Positions 27,237 through 38,209 of a stretch of DNA of 38,666 bases are shown here, piece after piece. A program made the translations under genes and the position numbers. This DNA is from Flavobacteriaceae bacterium (GTDB taxonomy: Bacteria; Bacteroidota; Bacteroidia; Flavobacteriales; Flavobacteriaceae): assembly GCA_013215095.1 (NCBI GenBank), contig JABSPM010000029.1:1-38666 (forward strand), written 5' to 3'. Below the pieces are notes generated by a model that did no database searches, was not told the origin of the DNA, and saw only the letters and a list, made by a program, of their open reading frames with translations. The number at the start of each line of letters is the position of its first letter. Within the stretch, counting starts at the first letter, position 1.

Positions 27237-27425
27237 TTATTTTTTGTTTAAGTCTTCATTATTGTCAGAATCGTCTTTGCTAGCATCTTTAAACTCTTTA
27301 ATTCCGCTGCCTAAGCCACGCATTAATTCAGGAATTTTTCTTCCACCAAATAATAATAAAACAACAACTACAATTAATATAATTTGAGGCGCTCCAATTG
27401 CTAATGGTAACATATATAAACTCAT
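27237..27425 (-). CDS. tatA: Twin-arginine translocase subunit TatA/TatE
   Basis: The pore-forming subunit of the Tat pathway for exporting folded proteins across the inner membrane. At 62 residues it has the family plan: a short periplasmic N-terminus, one hydrophobic segment (about residues 13-27, [16 protein letters not shown]), the hinge motif [14 protein letters not shown] followed by an amphipathic helix [10 protein letters not shown], and an acidic tail. An in-frame ATG at 27413 (MLPLAIG) is an alternative start. No tatC is seen nearby. It diverges from the M23 gene. Confidence 0.93.
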
Positions 27426-27543: not shown

Positions 27544-28002
27544 ATGTCAGATAAAAAGAAATCAAAAAAAAAAATTACCAAAAAGTTACTGCACAAGTAC
27601 CGTTTGGTTATTCTCAATGAAGAGACTTTTGAAGAGCGTTTTGCTATTAAACTTACACGACTCAATGTGTTTGTTATAGTCTCTATTTTAGCTATATTTT
27701 TAATTATTGCGACAACGCTTTTCATCGCATTTACCCCGATAAGAGAATACATTCCAGGGTACTCATCAACAGCTTTGAAAAAAAAAGCTACAGAACTCAA
27801 TTATAAAAGTGATTCTTTAGAACGTGTGATTGTAATGAATGAACAGTATTTTGAAAGTATAAAACGCGTTCTAAAAGGCGATGTTAGTAAAGTAGAATTT
27901 AACAAAGATTCTATCATTAAAGCTGCCGAGCAAGATCTTGCAGACTTTGACCTTAATCCTTCAAAAGAAGACTCGCTTTTAAGAGGAAAAGTAGATAAAT
28001 AA
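27544..28002 (+). CDS. N-terminal part of interrupted M23 peptidase (membrane anchor and coiled coil)
   Basis: A 152-residue product of the first half: a very basic cytoplasmic N-terminus (KKKSKKKITKKLLHKY), a single membrane segment at about residues 37-60 (NVFVIVSILAIFLIIATTLF), a short IREYIPGYSS periplasmic hinge and a helical coiled-coil region. This is the anchor half of the Bacteroidota M23 family; it has no catalytic residues on its own. It stops at the TAA at 28000-28002. If translated alone it would be a membrane-tethered protein without enzyme activity. Confidence 0.65.
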   Translation: MSDKKKSKKKITKKLLHKYRLVILNEETFEERFAIKLTRLNVFVIVSILAIFLIIATTLFIAFTPIREYIPGYSSTALKKKATELNYKSDSLERVIVMNEQYFESIKRVLKGDVSKVEFNKDSIIKAAEQDLADFDLNPSKEDSLLRGKVDK

Positions 28003-28038
28003 GATAAATATAGCATTTTTGAGTCTGCAACATCAAAA

Positions 28039-28413
28039 GTGAGTTTTGTACTGTTCTCTCCCGTAACAGGAAAAATTAGCGAAGGTTATAATGCCGAAGA
28101 AAAACATTATGCCGTAGATATTGTTGTAGCAAAGGATACACCTGTAAAATCTGTCGCAGACGGAACAGTTATTCTATCAGAGTGGACTACAGAAACGGGA
28201 TATGTGATAATGATAGACCACGGAAATGGGCTAATTTCTATTTACAAGCACAATGCAGCGCTAACCAAATCTCAGGGCGACTTAGTAAAATCTGGAGAAG
28301 TCATTGCAATTTCGGGTAATTCTGGCGAGTTAACGACAGGGCCACACTTACATTTCGAATTATGGAGTGATGGCTATCCAATTAATCCAGTAAAATTTAT
28401 TGATTTTGAATAA
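28039..28413 (+). CDS. C-terminal part of interrupted M23 peptidase (catalytic domain)
   Basis: The LytM/M23 domain, a zinc endopeptidase that cuts peptidoglycan cross-links. All ligands are present: His23 and Asp27 in HYAVDIV and His103 and His105 in HLHFE, with residue numbers counted from a possible GTG start at 28039. It lacks a signal peptide or anchor, so as a separate product it would stay in the cytoplasm, away from its substrate. The frame is open back to the TAA at 28000, and residues before the GTG (DKYSIFESATSK) look like ordinary protein. Restarted translation or stop readthrough is possible. Its stop codon abuts the GH3 start codon. Confidence 0.6.
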   Translation: MSFVLFSPVTGKISEGYNAEEKHYAVDIVVAKDTPVKSVADGTVILSEWTTETGYVIMIDHGNGLISIYKHNAALTKSQGDLVKSGEVIAISGNSGELTTGPHLHFELWSDGYPINPVKFIDFE

Positions 28414-29931
28414 ATGAAGTTAGGTTCTGTAATATCTTTAAAAGCGTTGTTAGCAAAACCTTTTGCGAAGCACATTAGAAAAAAAGTAAATAAGTGGGCG
28501 AAAAACCCAATTGAGACACAAGAAAAAGTGTTTCAGAGGTTAATAGCTGATGCTGTACAAACGCAATTTGGTAAAGACCATGATTTTGAGAGCATTAAAA
28601 CGTATGAGGATTTTGTAAAACGTGTTCCAGTAAGAGATTATGAGGCCTTGAGGCCTTATGTAGACCGTGTAGTCGCTGGTGAAGAGAATATTCTTTGGAA
28701 AGGTAAACCTATCTATTTTGCAAAGACCTCAGGAACAACCTCTGGGGCAAAATATATTCCGATTACAGCCGAAAGTATGCCATCTCATGTTGAAGCAGCC
28801 CGAAATGCCATTCTATTATATATTGCAGAAACGGGAAAAACGAATTTTGTAAATGGGAAAATGATTTTTCTTCAAGGCAGTCCCATTTTAGAAGAAAAAC
28901 ATGGTGTTCAATTAGGAAGATTGTCTGGAATTGTAGCGCATTATGTTCCAAAATATCTACAAAAAAATAGAATGCCATCATGGAAAACCAATTGTATTGA
29001 AGACTGGGAAACTAAGGTCGAAGCTATAGTTAAAGAAACACTGCCCGAAAACATGACCATTATTAGTGGTATTCCGTCTTGGGTTCAAATGTATTTTGAA
29101 AAGCTTCAAAAACAAACTGGGCAAAACGTTGGAGATATCTTTAAAAACTTTAATCTTTTTATTTTTGGAGGCGTAAATTATGAACCATATAGAGCAAAGT
29201 TTGAAAAACTTATAGGTAGAAAAGTAGATAGTATAGAATTGTATCCCGCTAGTGAAGGGTTTTTTGCATATCAAGACTCTCAAAAGGAAAAAGGCATGTT
29301 GCTACAGCTAAATTCTGGTATTTTTTATGAGTTTATAAAAGCTGAAGATTTCTTTAACAAAAATCCAAAGCGAATCATCCTTAAAGATGTTAAGGTTGGC
29401 GTAAATTATGTGATGTTGATTTCTACAAATGCAGGACTTTGGGCATATAATATTGGAGATACTGTAGTTTTTACGTCTACAACGCCTTATAGGGTTATTG
29501 TATCTGGTAGAATAAAACATTTTATTTCTGCATTTGGAGAGCATGTTATCGGAAAGGAAGTAGAGCAAGCCTTGCAAGAGGCAATTGCTGAAACGGCAAT
29601 AACGATTTCAGAATTTACAGTAGCACCAATGATTAATACCGAAAAAGAATTGCCTTATCATGAATGGTTTATTGAGTTTGAAACTGCGCCAGAAAATGTT
29701 CAAGAATTAGCTCAAAAGATAGACCAATCCTTGCAAAGTCAAAACAGCTATTATTTAGACTTGATAGAAGGCAAAGTTTTACAACCACTAAAAATAACAC
29801 CTGTTAAAAAAGACGGTTTTAAAGCTTATATGAAGTCGGTTGGAAAGCTGGGAGGTCAAAATAAAGTGCCTAGATTAGCCAATGATAGAGCAATAGCAAA
29901 AATGCTATATGAAACAAATTTAGTGAATTAG
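28414..29931 (+). CDS. GH3 family acyl-adenylate-forming protein
   Basis: A 505-residue member of the GH3 (auxin-responsive) family of the adenylating enzyme superfamily. The nucleotide loop is AKTSGTTSGAKYIPIT at about residues 103-118; an adenine-binding region LYPASEGFFAYQ and a later AYNIGDTVVFTS with the C-terminal G-I-HFISAFGEHV follow. In plants GH3 proteins join amino acids to jasmonate, auxin or related acids; the bacterial substrates are unknown, so no reaction is assigned. It starts directly after the M23 stop codon (TAA then ATG) and must be co-transcribed with it. The M23/GH3/DUF6909 order is, as I recall, common in Flavobacteriaceae. Confidence 0.88.
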   Translation: MKLGSVISLKALLAKPFAKHIRKKVNKWAKNPIETQEKVFQRLIADAVQTQFGKDHDFESIKTYEDFVKRVPVRDYEALRPYVDRVVAGEENILWKGKPIYFAKTSGTTSGAKYIPITAESMPSHVEAARNAILLYIAETGKTNFVNGKMIFLQGSPILEEKHGVQLGRLSGIVAHYVPKYLQKNRMPSWKTNCIEDWETKVEAIVKETLPENMTIISGIPSWVQMYFEKLQKQTGQNVGDIFKNFNLFIFGGVNYEPYRAKFEKLIGRKVDSIELYPASEGFFAYQDSQKEKGMLLQLNSGIFYEFIKAEDFFNKNPKRIILKDVKVGVNYVMLISTNAGLWAYNIGDTVVFTSTTPYRVIVSGRIKHFISAFGEHVIGKEVEQALQEAIAETAITISEFTVAPMINTEKELPYHEWFIEFETAPENVQELAQKIDQSLQSQNSYYLDLIEGKVLQPLKITPVKKDGFKAYMKSVGKLGGQNKVPRLANDRAIAKMLYETNLVN

Positions 29932-31656: not shown

Positions 31657-32705
31657 GTCATAACTCTAATAATTCTACAAATGACCAAGAAGTTGATTTA
31701 GGGCAACTTTTTAATGCTATAGGGAAGGCATTTGATCGTTTTATAAATTTTATATCCTCTATTTTTAAGTCTATTTTTTCTGTAATCATTTACGCGATTA
31801 GGGATTTTATTCTTAATTTTAAAATCATAGTTGGTTTACTATTGCTTGTAGGAATCATTGGTTATGGTATAGAAAAGTATAGAGAGCCAACGTATGAATC
31901 TGAGATGATAGTGAAAACGTATTTTGACTCTAAATATCAGTTGTTCTCTAAGATTAATTATTTTAATACGTTATTAAATAATAAAAATTATGATGTCTTA
32001 TCAGGTGTTTTTAAAATAGATGAAGAAACCGCTTCTAAAATTATAAGTTTTGAAATTGATGCAGGACCGGAAACAGAAAGTGAACGTATTTTGAAATATG
32101 AGGAATTCTTACAGGGAATTGACAGTACAAGGGTTTCAAATTATACTTATGAGTATTTTATCGAAAATAGGGAAATTACTTCTGGAGATTTGTTTGCTAT
32201 CAAAGTAGAGTCTTATAAAAAAGATATTTTTAGTACTTTAGGAGATGGACTGAATCTGTCTTTTGAGAATGAGTATTCCTCTAAAAAAATGAAAAAAAGG
32301 GACTCTATGTTGTTAATTCAGAAAGAAAACTTACAAGCCTCCATTCAAGAGGTTAAACAATTACAAAAGATATATATTGATGTTTTAGAGGAAGAAGCAC
32401 AGTCCACGAAGGCATCAATAGCATTAGGCGATGGTTTCCCTCTACAACAAGAAAAAACAGAAACAAAGGAATATCAACTGTTAAATCAAGAGATACAATT
32501 AAGGGAGGAATTAAGAAAATTAGAAGAAGAGAAAATTGAAGAAAATGTGTTTTATGAGGTAATTTCTGGTTTTCAGGAAATAGGGAATGAAACCAAAAAT
32601 ATCTTGAAAAGATATTCGCTTCTTTTTCCTATGTTCGTGTTTGCTTTAATCATCATAGTTTATTTCTCGAGAAAGTGTATAAAATTTGTGCTTAATTATG
32701 AATAG
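31653..32705 (+). CDS. Wzz-like chain-length determinant/membrane protein
   Basis: A 350-residue protein with the topology of polysaccharide co-polymerases: an amphipathic N-terminal region, a membrane segment at about residues 57-72 (KIIVGLLLLVGIIGYG), a long periplasmic coiled-coil-rich region (about 75-320) and a C-terminal membrane segment at about 322-341 (LLFPMFVFALIIIVYFS). There is no tyrosine kinase domain. Primary sequence similarity to classical Wzz is weak; the call rests on topology and on its position at the head of the nucleotide-sugar genes. It overlaps the previous gene by 4 nt and the rmlB gene by 8 nt, so translation is probably coupled. Confidence 0.6.
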   Translation: MSHNSNNSTNDQEVDLGQLFNAIGKAFDRFINFISSIFKSIFSVIIYAIRDFILNFKIIVGLLLLVGIIGYGIEKYREPTYESEMIVKTYFDSKYQLFSKINYFNTLLNNKNYDVLSGVFKIDEETASKIISFEIDAGPETESERILKYEEFLQGIDSTRVSNYTYEYFIENREITSGDLFAIKVESYKKDIFSTLGDGLNLSFENEYSSKKMKKRDSMLLIQKENLQASIQEVKQLQKIYIDVLEEEAQSTKASIALGDGFPLQQEKTETKEYQLLNQEIQLREELRKLEEEKIEENVFYEVISGFQEIGNETKNILKRYSLLFPMFVFALIIIVYFSRKCIKFVLNYE

Positions 32706-33708
32706 AACAGTACTCATTACTGGTGGGGCTGGATTTATAGGTTCTAATTTTATTCCGTATCTGTTAGACACAAATGATTATAGTATTGTAAATTTAGACA
32801 AGCTTACTTATGCAGGTAAGCTTTCTAATTTAAAAACGGTGGAACACCATCCAAATTACACCTTTGTTAAAGGAGATGTTTGCGATAAAACACTACTTAT
32901 TACCCTTTTTGAAAAGTATAATTTCTCAGGTGTGATTCACTTTGCGGCAGAATCTCATGTCGATAATTCTATACAACATCCTGATGCTTTTATTCAAACC
33001 AATATAATAGGAACATTTAATTTGCTTGAAATCGCAAAGAGATATTGGATGGATGAACCTTTTAAATATAAAAAAGGCAAAGAGAACTGTAAGTTTCATC
33101 ATATTTCTACAGATGAGGTTTACGGGAGCTTAGGCGAAGAGGGTATGTTTTTAGAAACGACCCCTTATGCGCCAAACAGCCCTTATAGCGCCTCTAAAGC
33201 ATCTTCAGATTTTTTAGTTAGGAGTTATTTTCATACTTATGGATTAAATGTGCTAACTACAAATTGTTCTAACAATTATGGCCCAAAACAACATAATGAA
33301 AAACTGATACCAACTATTATAAGAAGGGCTTTAAATAATGCGCCAATTCCTATATATGGTGATGGAAAACATATTAGAGATTGGTTGTACGTTTTAGATC
33401 ATTGTAAAGGCATAAGGTTGGTTTATGAAAATGGCAATTATGGAGAAACCTATAATATAGGAGGGCGAAATGAAAAAGATAATATTTATATCGCAACATT
33501 AATTTGCGAAATATTAGATAAACTAAGGCCTACAGATAAAAGTTATAAAGATTTGATTAGTTTTGTAAAGGATAGACCAGGGCATGATTTTAGATATGCG
33601 ATAGATGCCTCTAAAATAGAAAATGAACTCGGTTGGAAGGCTGATGAGACGTTTGAATCTGGAATATTGAAAACCATTACATGGTACATTAAAACATATA
33701 AAGATTAA
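32698..33708 (+). CDS. rmlB: dTDP-glucose 4,6-dehydratase
   Basis: The second step of dTDP-L-rhamnose synthesis, converting dTDP-glucose to dTDP-4-keto-6-deoxyglucose. A short-chain dehydrogenase-type protein of 336 residues: NAD motif [10 protein letters not shown] at the N-terminus, [11 protein letters not shown], the catalytic TDEVYG (Thr-Asp-Glu), the Tyr-x3-Lys motif YSASKAS, and [21 protein letters not shown] at 32686 would add four residues (MCLI), but ATG 32698 is the natural start, inside the last codons of the Wzz-like gene. It is followed 1 nt later by rmlA. Confidence 0.95.
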
Positions 33709-33709
33709 C

Positions 33710-34570
33710 ATGAAAGGTATAATTCTAGCAGGGGGCTCAGGAACACGCTTATATCCTTTAACAAGATCTGTAAGTAAGCAGTTAATTCCTGTTTACGATA
33801 AACCAATGATATATTATCCGCTTACTACCTTGATGTCAGCTGGTGTAAGAGAGATATTGATTATTACAACTAAAGAAGATCAAGAGCGTTTTAAGCAGTT
33901 GCTTGGAGATGGTAGACGTTACGGTTGTCGCTTTGAATATACTATCCAAGAAGCACCAAATGGTCTTGCTGAGGCTTTTATTCTTGGAGAAAATTTTATA
34001 GGAAAGGATCCTGTAGTGTTAATTCTCGGTGATAACATTTTTTATGGTTCAGGTTTAAATCAAACGCTTCAGAATAATTTAGACCCTAAAGGAGGACTTA
34101 TTTTTGCATATCATGTTCAGGACCCAGAGCGTTATGGCGTTGTAGAATTTGATAAAAATAATACCGTAATTTCAATTGAAGAGAAACCAACACATCCAAA
34201 ATCTAATTTTGCAGTACCAGGGATTTACTTTTATGATAATAATGTTATCGAAATAGCAAAAAATATAAAACCAAGTCATAGAGGTGAATTGGAAATTACA
34301 GATATTAATAAAATGTATCTCGACCAAGGAAACTTAAAGGTTCGAATATTAGATAGAGGTACGGCTTGGCTAGATACAGGAACCTTTGCGTCTTTGATAC
34401 AAGCATCCCAATTTGTTCAAGTTATAGAAGACCGTCAAGGCCTTAAAATTGGATCCATAGAAGAAACAGCTTATACTATGGGCTACATTACTAAAACGCA
34501 ATTATTGGAACTAGCCGATCCTTTGCTAAAGAGTGGTTATGGCAAATACCTTCAACAAATAGTAAAGTAA
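33710..34570 (+). CDS. rmlA: Glucose-1-phosphate thymidylyltransferase
   Basis: The first step of dTDP-L-rhamnose synthesis, making dTDP-glucose from dTTP and glucose-1-phosphate. At 286 residues it is the usual short RmlA form. Signatures: [19 protein letters not shown], the nucleotide-binding N-terminus with the catalytic Arg and Lys; [25 protein letters not shown] with the metal-binding Asp; ERYGVVEFD; and [13 protein letters not shown]. It ends 1 nt before the rmlC gene start. Confidence 0.96.
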
Positions 34571-34571
34571 G

Positions 34572-35117
34572 ATGAAAGTTCAGGAAACACATTTGGAGGG
34601 GTGTTATGTGATAACACCAGCGGTATTTAAGGATAGTAGAGGGTGTTTTTTTGAGAGTTTTAATCACAAAAAATTTAAAGACTTAACGGGTATAAATTTT
34701 GACGTAGTGCAAACCAATCAGTCAATTTCAAATAAAGGTGTGTTGAGAGGCTTACACTACCAAGAAGAACCTTATGCGCAAGCAAAATTGGTTAGAGTAA
34801 TAAAAGGAAAGGTGCTTGATATATGTGTAGATTTGAGAAAAACGTCAAAAACCTTTGGACAGCACTTTGCTCTAGAGCTTTCTTCAGACAACAACACTCA
34901 ACTGTTTATTCCAAGAGGGTTTGCTCATGGATTTATTACCCTAGAAGATCATACGATATTTAGCTACCATTGTGATAACTATTATAATAAGGCATCGGAA
35001 AATGGAATTATATACAATGATCCGCAATTAAACTTGAAATGGCCTTTAGAGGCAAACGCTTTTATAATTTCTGAAAGAGATTTAGAACTACCTAAGCTAC
35101 AAACTATTTTTAAATAA
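34572..35117 (+). CDS. rmlC: dTDP-4-dehydrorhamnose 3,5-epimerase
   Basis: The third step of dTDP-L-rhamnose synthesis. At 181 residues it is the normal cupin-fold size. Landmarks: DSRGCFFESFN near residues 21-31, GVLRGLHYQ with the catalytic His, KLVRVIKGKVLDICVDLR, then FIPRGFAHGF and a Tyr-containing FSYHCDNYYN. The gaps to its neighbours are one and two bases, which shows the tight packing of the rml genes. Confidence 0.95.
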   Translation: MKVQETHLEGCYVITPAVFKDSRGCFFESFNHKKFKDLTGINFDVVQTNQSISNKGVLRGLHYQEEPYAQAKLVRVIKGKVLDICVDLRKTSKTFGQHFALELSSDNNTQLFIPRGFAHGFITLEDHTIFSYHCDNYYNKASENGIIYNDPQLNLKWPLEANAFIISERDLELPKLQTIFK

Positions 35118-35119
35118 TT

Positions 35120-35986
35120 ATGATAAATGTGTTAGTTACTGGTGCTCATGGCCAATTGGCAAGAACAATTGCCCTATCGCAAGAAGAGGCAGTTAATGTA
35201 AATGTGACGTTTAAATCGAAAAAAGAACTTGATACAACAAATAAAGACGCTATAACAGCCATTTTTCATAATTTAAATATTGATTTTTGTATAAATTGTG
35301 CAGCCTATACCAATGTAGATCAAGCAGAAAAATCCCCAGACTTAGCTTACCAAGTTAACGCAGATGCAGTTAAAAATTTAGCAGAAGTTTGTGAAAAATA
35401 TAATGTAAAGCTCATCCATATTTCAACAGATTATGTATTTGATGGAAACCAAAGTCAACCCTATTTAGAAGAAGGCTTTACAAACCCTCTAAATACTTAC
35501 GGCAAATCAAAGCTTAAAGGAGAACATCATATTCAGAAAATATTAGAGTCTTATTATATCATAAGAACCTCATGGTTGTATTCAGCGTTTGAAAATAATT
35601 TTTTCAATACAATTTGTAAATGCTTAGAAGACAACAAAGATTTAAACATTACAATTGAACAAATAGGTACGCCAACAAGCTGTTTAAGTTTAGCGCGATA
35701 TTTACTTTGGATTGTGACTAGTAATTTGGAATATGGTATCTATCATTTCTCTGATGACGGTGAAGCTACATGGTTTGACTTTGCATTAGAAATTGCTAAA
35801 CAATATAAAGACCAAGATAAAAAGGCTTTAATCAAAGCTTCAGAAAGTTATCCAACAATAGCTAAGAGGCCTGTTTATAGTGTTTTAGACAATACGAAAA
35901 GAAAACGATCGTATGCAATGCATATCGATTGGAGGGGGTCTATAAATGAGATTTATCAACTTAGAAGAGAATTAGCACAGTATTAA
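35120..35986 (+). CDS. rmlD: dTDP-4-dehydrorhamnose reductase
   Basis: The last step of dTDP-L-rhamnose synthesis: NAD(P)H-dependent reduction of the keto sugar. A 288-residue extended short-chain dehydrogenase. Landmarks: VTGAHGQLARTI for the cofactor loop, NCAAYTNVDQAE, STDYVFDG, the YGKSKLKGE catalytic Tyr-x3-Lys motif, and RTSWLYSAFENNF. The gene completes the rmlBACD set. A 54-nt gap then separates it from the fucose genes. Confidence 0.94.
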   Translation: MINVLVTGAHGQLARTIALSQEEAVNVNVTFKSKKELDTTNKDAITAIFHNLNIDFCINCAAYTNVDQAEKSPDLAYQVNADAVKNLAEVCEKYNVKLIHISTDYVFDGNQSQPYLEEGFTNPLNTYGKSKLKGEHHIQKILESYYIIRTSWLYSAFENNFFNTICKCLEDNKDLNITIEQIGTPTSCLSLARYLLWIVTSNLEYGIYHFSDDGEATWFDFALEIAKQYKDQDKKALIKASESYPTIAKRPVYSVLDNTKRKRSYAMHIDWRGSINEIYQLRRELAQY

Positions 35987-35999
35987 ATACTAAAAACGC

Positions 36000-36007
36000 T
36001 ACATTTG
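36000..36007 (+). promoter_or_regulatory. Possible internal -7 element upstream of gmd
   Basis: TACATTTG matches TAnnTTTG and ends 33 nt before the gmd ATG, in the largest gap of the sugar operon. It could give the fucose genes separate expression. Confidence 0.4.
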
Positions 36008-36040
36008 TTTTGCTAGGAAAATAATTAACATCAAATAAAT

Positions 36041-37159
36041 ATGCAAAAGAAGACGGCTTTGATTACTGGAGCAACTGGACAAGACGGCGCTTACTTAAGC
36101 GAGTTTTTGTTAAAAAAAGATTACGAAGTACATGGTATAAAACGTAGAGCATCACAATTTAATACAGATAGAATTGATCATTTATATCAAGATCCCCATG
36201 AACAGAATGTTAATTTTATTTTGCATTATGGTGATTTAACGGACAGTACTAACCTTATTAGAATTATACAAGAAGTTCGCCCAGATGAAATCTATAATTT
36301 GGCGGCGATGAGTCATGTTCATGTGTCATTTGAGATGCCCGAATATACAGCTAATGTAGATGCTTTAGGCACTTTAAGAATCTTAGAAGCAGTCAGAATT
36401 CTTGGTTTAGAAAAGACAACCAGAATATACCAGGCTTCTACATCAGAGCTTTACGGAAAAGTCCAAGAGGTACCACAAACCGAAACGCCCCCGTTTTACC
36501 CGAGAAGCCCATACGCTGTTGCAAAAATGTATGCCTATTGGATTACCGTAAATTATAGGGAAGCCTATGGGATGTATGCGTGTAATGGTATTTTATTTAA
36601 TCATGAATCTCCAATTAGAGGAGAAACTTTTGTGACAAGAAAAATTACCAGAGCAACTTCAAGAATTGCTTTAAATTTGCAGGACAAAGTATATCTAGGA
36701 AACCTTGATGCCAAAAGAGATTGGGGCCATGCTAAGGATTATGTGCGCATGATGTGGATGATTTTACAAGCAGATACACCCGAAGATTGGGTAATTGCAA
36801 CCAATAAGACAACCTCGGTTAGAGATTTTGTACGAATGTGTTTTATGCATATTGGGGTAGAATTGAATTTTGAAGGTGAAGGCTCTAGTGAAAGGGGTTT
36901 TGTAAAATCATGCAATAATCCTCTCTATCAACTAGAAATAGGAAGAGAAGTCGTAGCGGTAGATGAGAAATATTATAGACCAACAGAAGTAGATTTGTTA
37001 ATAGGAGATGCAACTAAAGCTAAAGAAAAACTAGGTTGGGTGCCAGAGTATGATTTAGAAGCCCTAGTAGAAGATATGATGCAGAGTGATTTAAAACTTA
37101 TGAAAAAGCAATATTATCTTCAAGAAGGAGGGTATAGAATCAAAAACTATTTTGAATAG
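36041..37159 (+). CDS. gmd: GDP-mannose 4,6-dehydratase
   Basis: Converts GDP-mannose to GDP-4-keto-6-deoxymannose, the first step to GDP-L-fucose. A 372-residue short-chain dehydrogenase-type enzyme with the full family signature: [46 protein letters not shown], the catalytic STSELYGKV and [10 protein letters not shown], and [17 protein letters not shown]. It lies 3 nt before the GDP-fucose synthase gene, confirming the pathway assignment. Confidence 0.97.
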
Positions 37160-37162
37160 TCT

Positions 37163-38209
37163 ATGAATACAAATTCTAAAATATATATAGCAGGTCATCG
37201 CGGACTTGTAGGTAGTGCCATATTAGAAAATTTGCAAGATAGAGGCTATACCAATTTGGTTTTTAGAACACATAAAGAACTCGATTTAACTCATCAAGTT
37301 GAGGTTGCTAATTTTTTTAAAGATGAACAGCCAGAGTACGTTATTTTGGCGGCAGCTAAAGTAGGAGGTATAGTTGCAAACAATGTATATCGCGCAGATT
37401 TTATTTATTCCAATATGATGATTCAGAATAATGTGATTCATCAAAGCTATGTTCACGGGGTCAAGAAATTATTGTTTTTAGGGAGTACATGTGTTTACCC
37501 AAAACATGCACCTCAACCTATAAAAGAGGAGTCTTTGTTAACCGACATTCTTGAGTATACCAATGAACCTTATGCTATTGCTAAAATAGCTGGTATAAAA
37601 ATGTGTGAGAGTTATAACTTGCAATATAAAACCAACTTTATTTCGGTAATGCCAACAAACCTATATGGTCCCAATGATAATTTCGATTTAGAAAAGTCAC
37701 ATGTTCTTCCAGCATTAATTAGAAAAATTCATTTAGCGAAGCTACTTAATGAGGGTGATTTCGACGCTGTAAAAAAAGATTTGAATATAGATGATATAAC
37801 AGAAGCAAAGGACTACCTAGCGGGTTTCGGCGTAAATGAATCATCTGTTGAAGTCTGGGGAAGCGGAAAACCAATGCGCGAGTTTTTATGGTCTAAAGAT
37901 ATGGCAGATGCTTGCATTTTTATTATGCAACATAGAGATTTTAATGACACATACACGGCAAATCAAAACGAAATAAGAAATACACATATTAATATTGGAA
38001 CTGGGAAAGAAATCTCTATTAAGGCTTTAGCTGAAATTATAAAAGCTGAGGTTGGTTTTAAAGGCCAATTAGTTTTTAATTCCGATAAACCAGATGGTAC
38101 TATGCGAAAACTTACGGATGTTTCAAAGCTTAATGCTTTGGGCTGGAAACATAAGATAGAATTGAAAGAAGGGATTAGTAAAATATATCAATGGTATTTA
38201 AATCAGTAG
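37163..38209 (+). CDS. fcl: GDP-L-fucose synthase
   Basis: A combined epimerase and reductase that makes GDP-L-fucose from the Gmd product. A 348-residue short-chain dehydrogenase-type protein: AGHRGLVGSAI cofactor loop, AAAKVGGIVANN, GSTCVYPKHAPQPIKEE, catalytic YAIAKIAGIKMCESY, PTNLYGPNDNF, and RKLTDVSKLNALGW near the end. It is about 25 residues longer than E. coli Fcl because of an insertion near residues 194-222 (NEGDFDAVKKDLNIDD), which I believe is usual in Bacteroidota. It is the last complete gene; non-coding and IS-derived sequence follows. Confidence 0.96.
   Translation: MNTNSKIYIAGHRGLVGSAILENLQDRGYTNLVFRTHKELDLTHQVEVANFFKDEQPEYVILAAAKVGGIVANNVYRADFIYSNMMIQNNVIHQSYVHGVKKLLFLGSTCVYPKHAPQPIKEESLLTDILEYTNEPYAIAKIAGIKMCESYNLQYKTNFISVMPTNLYGPNDNFDLEKSHVLPALIRKIHLAKLLNEGDFDAVKKDLNIDDITEAKDYLAGFGVNESSVEVWGSGKPMREFLWSKDMADACIFIMQHRDFNDTYTANQNEIRNTHINIGTGKEISIKALAEIIKAEVGFKGQLVFNSDKPDGTMRKLTDVSKLNALGWKHKIELKEGISKIYQWYLNQ

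Follow-up and report, generated by a model that had tools for sequence, protein, structure and literature searches.

The window analysed here, a stretch of 38,666 nucleotides from a Flavobacteriaceae genome, includes on its forward strand a gene for a membrane-anchored M23 peptidase (27544–28413) which is interrupted by an in-frame TAA, the two halves lying in the same phase on either side of it (Table 1). The anchor half is composed of a basic cytoplasmic tail, one membrane helix (approximately residues 43–61, with a best 19-residue Kyte-Doolittle mean of 2.98) and predicted periplasmic helices. An AlphaFold2 model of this half (77 rows; mean pLDDT 80.2, pTM 0.34) places helices at residues 2–63, 76–111, 121–134 and 141–151; the model of the full-length protein is weak (mean pLDDT 64.6). 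The continuation behind the stop matches the Peptidase_M23 model PF01551 with 101.9 bits (cut-off 28.7), so that the open frame there is not a chance one. Indeed, the full-length protein of a relative, L003, can be aligned through the stop from residue 1 to 289 with 79% identity (E 1e-153) and a single TAA inside, in agreement with the original prediction of two in-phase halves separated by this codon. The same prediction held that all catalytic residues survive, and the alignment bears this out: H188, D192, H236, H268 and H270 (L003 numbering), which we take to be the catalytic/zinc positions of the M23 motif HxxxD, H, HxH, are all present in the M23 half of the window. The second-best M23 match in the window genome is 36% identical.

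The ATG of the GH3-family gene abuts the stop codon of the M23 half, and GH3 is found at 78 of 80 related loci (coverage above 90%; the best 80 of 578). The GH3 protein also resembles the lyso-ornithine lipid synthetase OlsH (NF052613), with a score of 397 bits, below the model cut-off of 620. Further downstream in the window (32686–38209) there is a run of sugar-nucleotide genes of the GDP_Man_Dehyd/Epimerase, NTP_transferase, dTDP_sugar_isom and RmlD_sub_bind families. The 9-base sequence AGATAAATA occurs as a perfect tandem pair, at 27993–28001 and 28002–28010, that is completed by the stop, and template slippage may conceivably have been the origin of the stop.

Table 1. Features of the interrupted gene, its neighbours and the related loci discussed in the text
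Feature	Position or loci	Strand	Details
tatA-like gene, divergent neighbour	27237..27425	-	PF02416
Anchor half	27544..28002	+	152 aa, frame 27544-27999; C-terminal LRGKVDK; from translation, hydropathy and AlphaFold2
TAA stop, in frame, residue 153	28000..28002	+	Codon in relatives: GAA 62, GAG 17, GCA 1 (best 80 of 578)
M23 peptidase half	28003..28413	+	136 aa, coding 28003-28410; own stop TAA 28411-28413; PF01551
GTG, sole possible restart codon upstream of the M23 domain	28039..28041	+	As a start, not conserved
GH3-family gene, conserved downstream neighbour	28414..29931	+	PF03321 and related models
Anchor-only loci	L180, L181, L202-L215 (g127); L216-L222 (g24)		No M23 domain
Loci with lost catalytic/zinc positions	L190-L194, L199-L201, L235		Full length

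The site of the stop was compared in 80 related loci from named genomes, the best 80 of 578 confirmed matches. The codon is open in all 80 and specifies Glu in 79 (Table 1), the GAA expected in the original prediction being by far the most frequent. No relative in this set shares the stop together with a conserved downstream start, the case that had been named as speaking against the prediction. Since these loci were fetched with the M23 half, anchor-only relatives cannot occur among them. A survey of the family used the full-length L003 protein as query against 397 sampled Flavobacteriaceae genomes (E 1e-30 or better) and found matches in 386, made up of 149 genomes (150 rows) and 237 that were re-searched; three non-matching genomes were re-searched too. 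A membrane-anchored M23 peptidase is thus nearly universal in the Flavobacteriaceae. Among the 386 matching genomes, only that of the window has a stop inside the match.

The remaining irregularities in the survey are of several kinds. The match is restricted to the anchor half in three of the 386 genomes (G126, G316 and G023), begins only at residue 36–105 in three (G179, G215, G375) and is broken by contig ends in two (G112, G263). In G081, a genome of 66% completeness, the anchor part and the M23 part are out of frame with each other (L183, 2635–3500). Five orthologs (G002, G236, G388, and G227 and G382 at L184 and L185) give a two-piece match inside one longer frame of 345–557 aa and look as if a stretch had been inserted. 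In the 11 of 397 genomes without a match at 1e-30, profile searches found M23-like stretches only, or nothing, with the exception of G123, where a 39-residue anchor piece lies at a contig end.

Anchor-only orthologs are frequent in two genera. Judged by match extent and open frame, the 61 genomes of genus g127 include 42 with an anchor-only gene, 16 with a full-length gene (one of them, G454, split over contig ends) and three without the anchor half, which were re-searched by profile. Genus g24 (20 genomes) has seven anchor-only and 13 full-length genes. The DNA was read in 16 g127 genomes (15 of the 42, and G316) and in all seven of g24. These correspond to 24 loci, L182 and L216 being one and the same gene, and in the DNA read around them a search at E 1e-4 returned nothing of the M23 half. 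A natural split of the gene in two was considered and is seen in none of these loci. Both flanks were checked in two g127 anchor-only loci and are retained; in G126 and G316 the order is tatA, anchor (162 and 168 aa) and GH3, and 11 bases separate the start of GH3 from the stop of the anchor gene. In g24, GH3 adjoins 10 of the 13 full-length genes and none of the seven anchor-only genes, so that the latter sit in another neighbourhood. Among the papers listed in literature searches, none deals with anchor-only forms in Flavobacteriaceae.

The anchor-only proteins read are 159–192 aa long, and their homology to the full-length form stops soon past an LRxEV motif and a few acidic residues. At 152 aa, the window product falls 7 residues short of the smallest of them; like them it ends soon after an LRxEV-like site and has no M23 domain. 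The M23 half is still intact in the window (28003–28410), which in this respect departs from the loss of M23 DNA seen in the class. In five of the 42 g127 anchor-only genomes (G440, G421 and G414, with loci L203, L204 and L214, and G420 and G425) the match overruns the gene's own stop by some residues and therefore also carries a stop inside; the overrun may be either a remnant of the M23 half or a chance extension.

The origin of these forms was examined with two trees. One, of the anchor half and GH3, was made by a quick method from 70 rows, 59 of them having GH3. In this tree the anchor-only state needs two changes, and the starred branches force two. A second tree, made with more care from g127 and outgroups (38 rows, leaving out L196 as a long branch and L198 as a short row), groups the g127 anchor-only genes in one clade (support 95/79), and 94% of 200 bootstrap trees need only a single change. 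The anchor-only form therefore arose at least twice, nested among full-length forms.

The dN/dS ratio is 0.057–0.137 in all 10 near pairs of anchor-only genes chosen, the values being rough in the five with dS above 1, which indicates purifying selection on the anchor-only genes tested. In an alignment of the window with 76 of the 80 relatives (77 rows; relatives being the best 80 of 578), 27 positions are invariant. All 23 anchor-only rows share 13 of these (R20, T28, E30, E31, L37, T57, G72, Y73, L85, S91, L110, G112 and R147), and 21 or more of the rows share 17; the invariant Y19, L40 and D143 are mostly replaced. Because of this constraint, the anchor would be functional alone, and the data suggest that it has a job of its own.

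Full-length forms may also have poor active sites. In g127, the M23 half is complete in 15 full-length loci (L198 was dropped since it lies at a contig end), and 8 of them lack one or more of the five catalytic/zinc positions, compared with one of 13 full-length loci in g24. Three of these residues are missing in each of L191, L192 and L194. The M23 domain is still constrained there, with dN/dS of its M23 part at 0.065 for L191/L194 and 0.033 for L192/L194.

How old is the stop in the window? At columns conserved in at least 93% of the other rows, the window deviates once in 51 before the stop and once in 55 after it, equal to the medians over 81 rows (one before, one after). The mean distance to 44 outgroups is 0.276 for the M23 half of the window, where three close relatives have 0.238, 0.260 and 0.231, and 0.333 for its anchor half, where they have 0.299, 0.322 and 0.335. 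Mean private changes (window/relative) are 11.6/6.6, 9.9/7.8 and 13.5/7.5 in the M23 half and 12.0/6.8, 11.2/9.6 and 13.6/13.9 in the anchor half. By these figures the window gene has a slight excess of changes, in all three comparisons for the M23 half and in two of three for the anchor half. With so little decay in the M23 half, the stop is either recent or an error. The members of the window's own clade, L002, L003 and L004, keep the enzyme, so that its dispensability is shown only in other lineages. As to its position, 129 changes in the window gene could give a nonsense codon, 11 of them in residues 148–166. The chance of a stop hitting the linker is therefore about one in 12, a figure which is suggestive only, since the location of the stop at a domain border was part of the reason for choosing the case.

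Other interrupted genes were sought in the same genome with a coding-frame scan and a shadow filter, covering 318,510 bases outside the window in 20 stretches and requiring that no ATG lie within 60 bases of the stop. Four same-frame interruptions were found: L140 (TAG), which is transposase-like by eye; L144 (16754–17908, TAG), with an M56 part ahead of the stop and a TonB part behind; L146 (133–1626, TGA); and L148 (12004–12975), with a TAG and a further frame break. The downstream part of L144 was followed in 40 genomes, where it lies in frames of 169 to 1011 aa with no stop inside the matches listed. In 266,433 bases of the genome G199 the scan gave one weak interruption, L161. A systematic TAA artefact was considered and rejected, the four other interruptions being TAG or TGA. 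This variety of stop codons fits ordinary mutation, and errors are compatible with it too; real gene decay probably exists in the window genome.

The reading that we favour, with some confidence, is that a recent nonsense mutation has produced here the anchor-only form already fixed in other lineages. Its main rival is an error in the consensus or assembly, the organism's gene being intact and full length. The evidence for the stop is one base in one genome assembly, within a conserved gene that shows no other damage, and such a change looks like a consensus error too. Also weighing against the favoured reading are the retention of the enzyme in the window's own clade, the shortness of the window product relative to the anchor-only proteins, and the slight excess of changes noted above. 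The assembly is moreover a draft (3,074,011 bases in 118 contigs), and an internal stop was seen in none of the other matching family genomes. Against an error stand the quality of the assembly (completeness 99.77, contamination 0.08) and the nature of the change, which relative to the other genes is a substitution and not an indel. Indels are the typical error of several error-prone sequencing platforms. The same-frame TAG and TGA interruptions elsewhere in the sampled 318.5 kb, one of them in a gene that is also frame-broken, likewise speak for mutation. On balance we consider an error unlikely, yet clearly the most serious of the alternatives, and we infer that the stop is present in the organism, beyond the assembly.

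The other alternatives are all far less probable. Readthrough or suppression of the stop would make some full-length enzyme and could draw on the intact same-phase continuation. TAA is a normal stop here, terminating 22 of 30 tallied ORFs in the window, that of the M23 half included, which also led us to reject genome-wide recoding of TAA; and the interruption occurs in no relative searched, so that its conservation as a readthrough site cannot be claimed. We regard readthrough as very improbable. Slightly less probable still is a restart at the GTG at 28039, which would yield an independently functioning M23 protein of 124 aa and which the original prediction had put forward as the source of a second product. 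This GTG is the sole ATG, GTG or TTG in the first 60 codons past the stop and is suitably placed, 12 codons beyond it and 21 residues ahead of the start of the Pfam match. In the relatives (the best 80 of 578) the equivalent codon is a start in only three of 80 (two ATG, one GTG), which rules out a conserved downstream start, and 21 of the 80 have no ATG, GTG or TTG in the first 34 codons past the site. A hydrophobic segment is lacking in the restart product (its highest Kyte-Doolittle mean over 19 residues is 0.97, versus 2.98 for the anchor), so that the enzyme would stay in the cytoplasm and not be freed into the periplasm. Nor does an M23 half stand beside the anchor in the anchor-only lineages read. 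Finally, the gene could be a plain pseudogene on its way to being lost, neither half mattering. Whole loss does occur, 11 of 397 genomes having no match at 1e-30 and 3 of 61 g127 genomes having no anchor half; the near universality of the gene (386 of 397) and the constraint on the anchor after M23 loss in the 10 pairs tested make this explanation about as implausible as restart. Programmed restart or readthrough is thus without support. The original interpretation stands as regards a lone nonsense codon where relatives have an open gene and falls as regards a conserved restart at GTG 28039.

According to the favoured reading, a recent nonsense mutation would have cut a membrane-anchored M23 peptidase at the linker ahead of its catalytic domain. 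The product would be a 152-aa anchor protein retaining the cytoplasmic tail, membrane helix and periplasmic helices, with no exported peptidase, and the M23 frame behind the stop would be intact and silent, or nearly so. Two other lineages have fixed such anchor-only proteins. The cell would tolerate the truncation because the anchor half has a function apart from the enzyme, probably that of a scaffold tying a cytoplasmic partner, for which bactofilin is a candidate, to the envelope.

More tentatively, the anchor may be an independent envelope scaffold in a family which would repeatedly have turned enzyme into scaffold, either by erosion of the active site or by shedding of the M23 domain at one linker. 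The window would then be a third and very recent case, in which the discarded enzyme is still readable. The usual view of M23 peptidases with this architecture is that the cytoskeleton recruits them to cut the cell wall; the constrained anchor-only and active-site-poor versions would mean that the recruiting portion is important even without a working cutter.

The closest likeness in build is to the LmdC-type M23 peptidases, described in PMC10945521 and PMC8416486 as bactofilin-linked proteins with a short cytoplasmic tail, one membrane helix, a coiled coil and an M23 domain. The window gene similarly encodes a tail, one membrane helix (residues 43–61), a helical periplasmic region and an M23 domain bearing its active site. 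Unlike in LmdC, a TAA parts the periplasmic helices from the M23 domain in the window, while relatives hold both in one frame. The LmdC tail is a beta-hairpin which binds bactofilin; the tail encoded in the window is modelled, at low pTM, as part of a single helix. The window gene also departs from the common, though not universal, LmdC layout in having tatA and GH3 as neighbours and no bactofilin gene; the one bactofilin match in the window genome lies on another contig (C19, the window being contig C41). The likeness to LmdC thus lies in the build, and membership of the LmdC type is only a proposal. In Rhodospirillum rubrum the LmdC tail binds bactofilin, and binding is also required for bactofilin placement (PMC10945521). 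The importance of LmdC varies among species according to PMC8416486: it is essential in H. neptunium, deletion of the C. crescentus ortholog is given as without phenotype, and no obvious role in growth or division is attributed to that of A. tumefaciens.

A second parallel is with the degenerate LytM factors EnvC and NlpD, which, according to PMC8416486, keep the M23 fold without catalytic activity and regulate amidases. The g127 proteins of L191, L192 and L194 resemble these in being short of catalytic positions and yet constrained. Unlike EnvC and NlpD, which keep their M23 domain, the anchor-only forms have none. The window shares the same anchor with the g127 and g24 anchor-only orthologs, the end points being about 7 to 40 residues apart; the loci read have lost the M23 DNA, which the window still carries in full beyond its stop.
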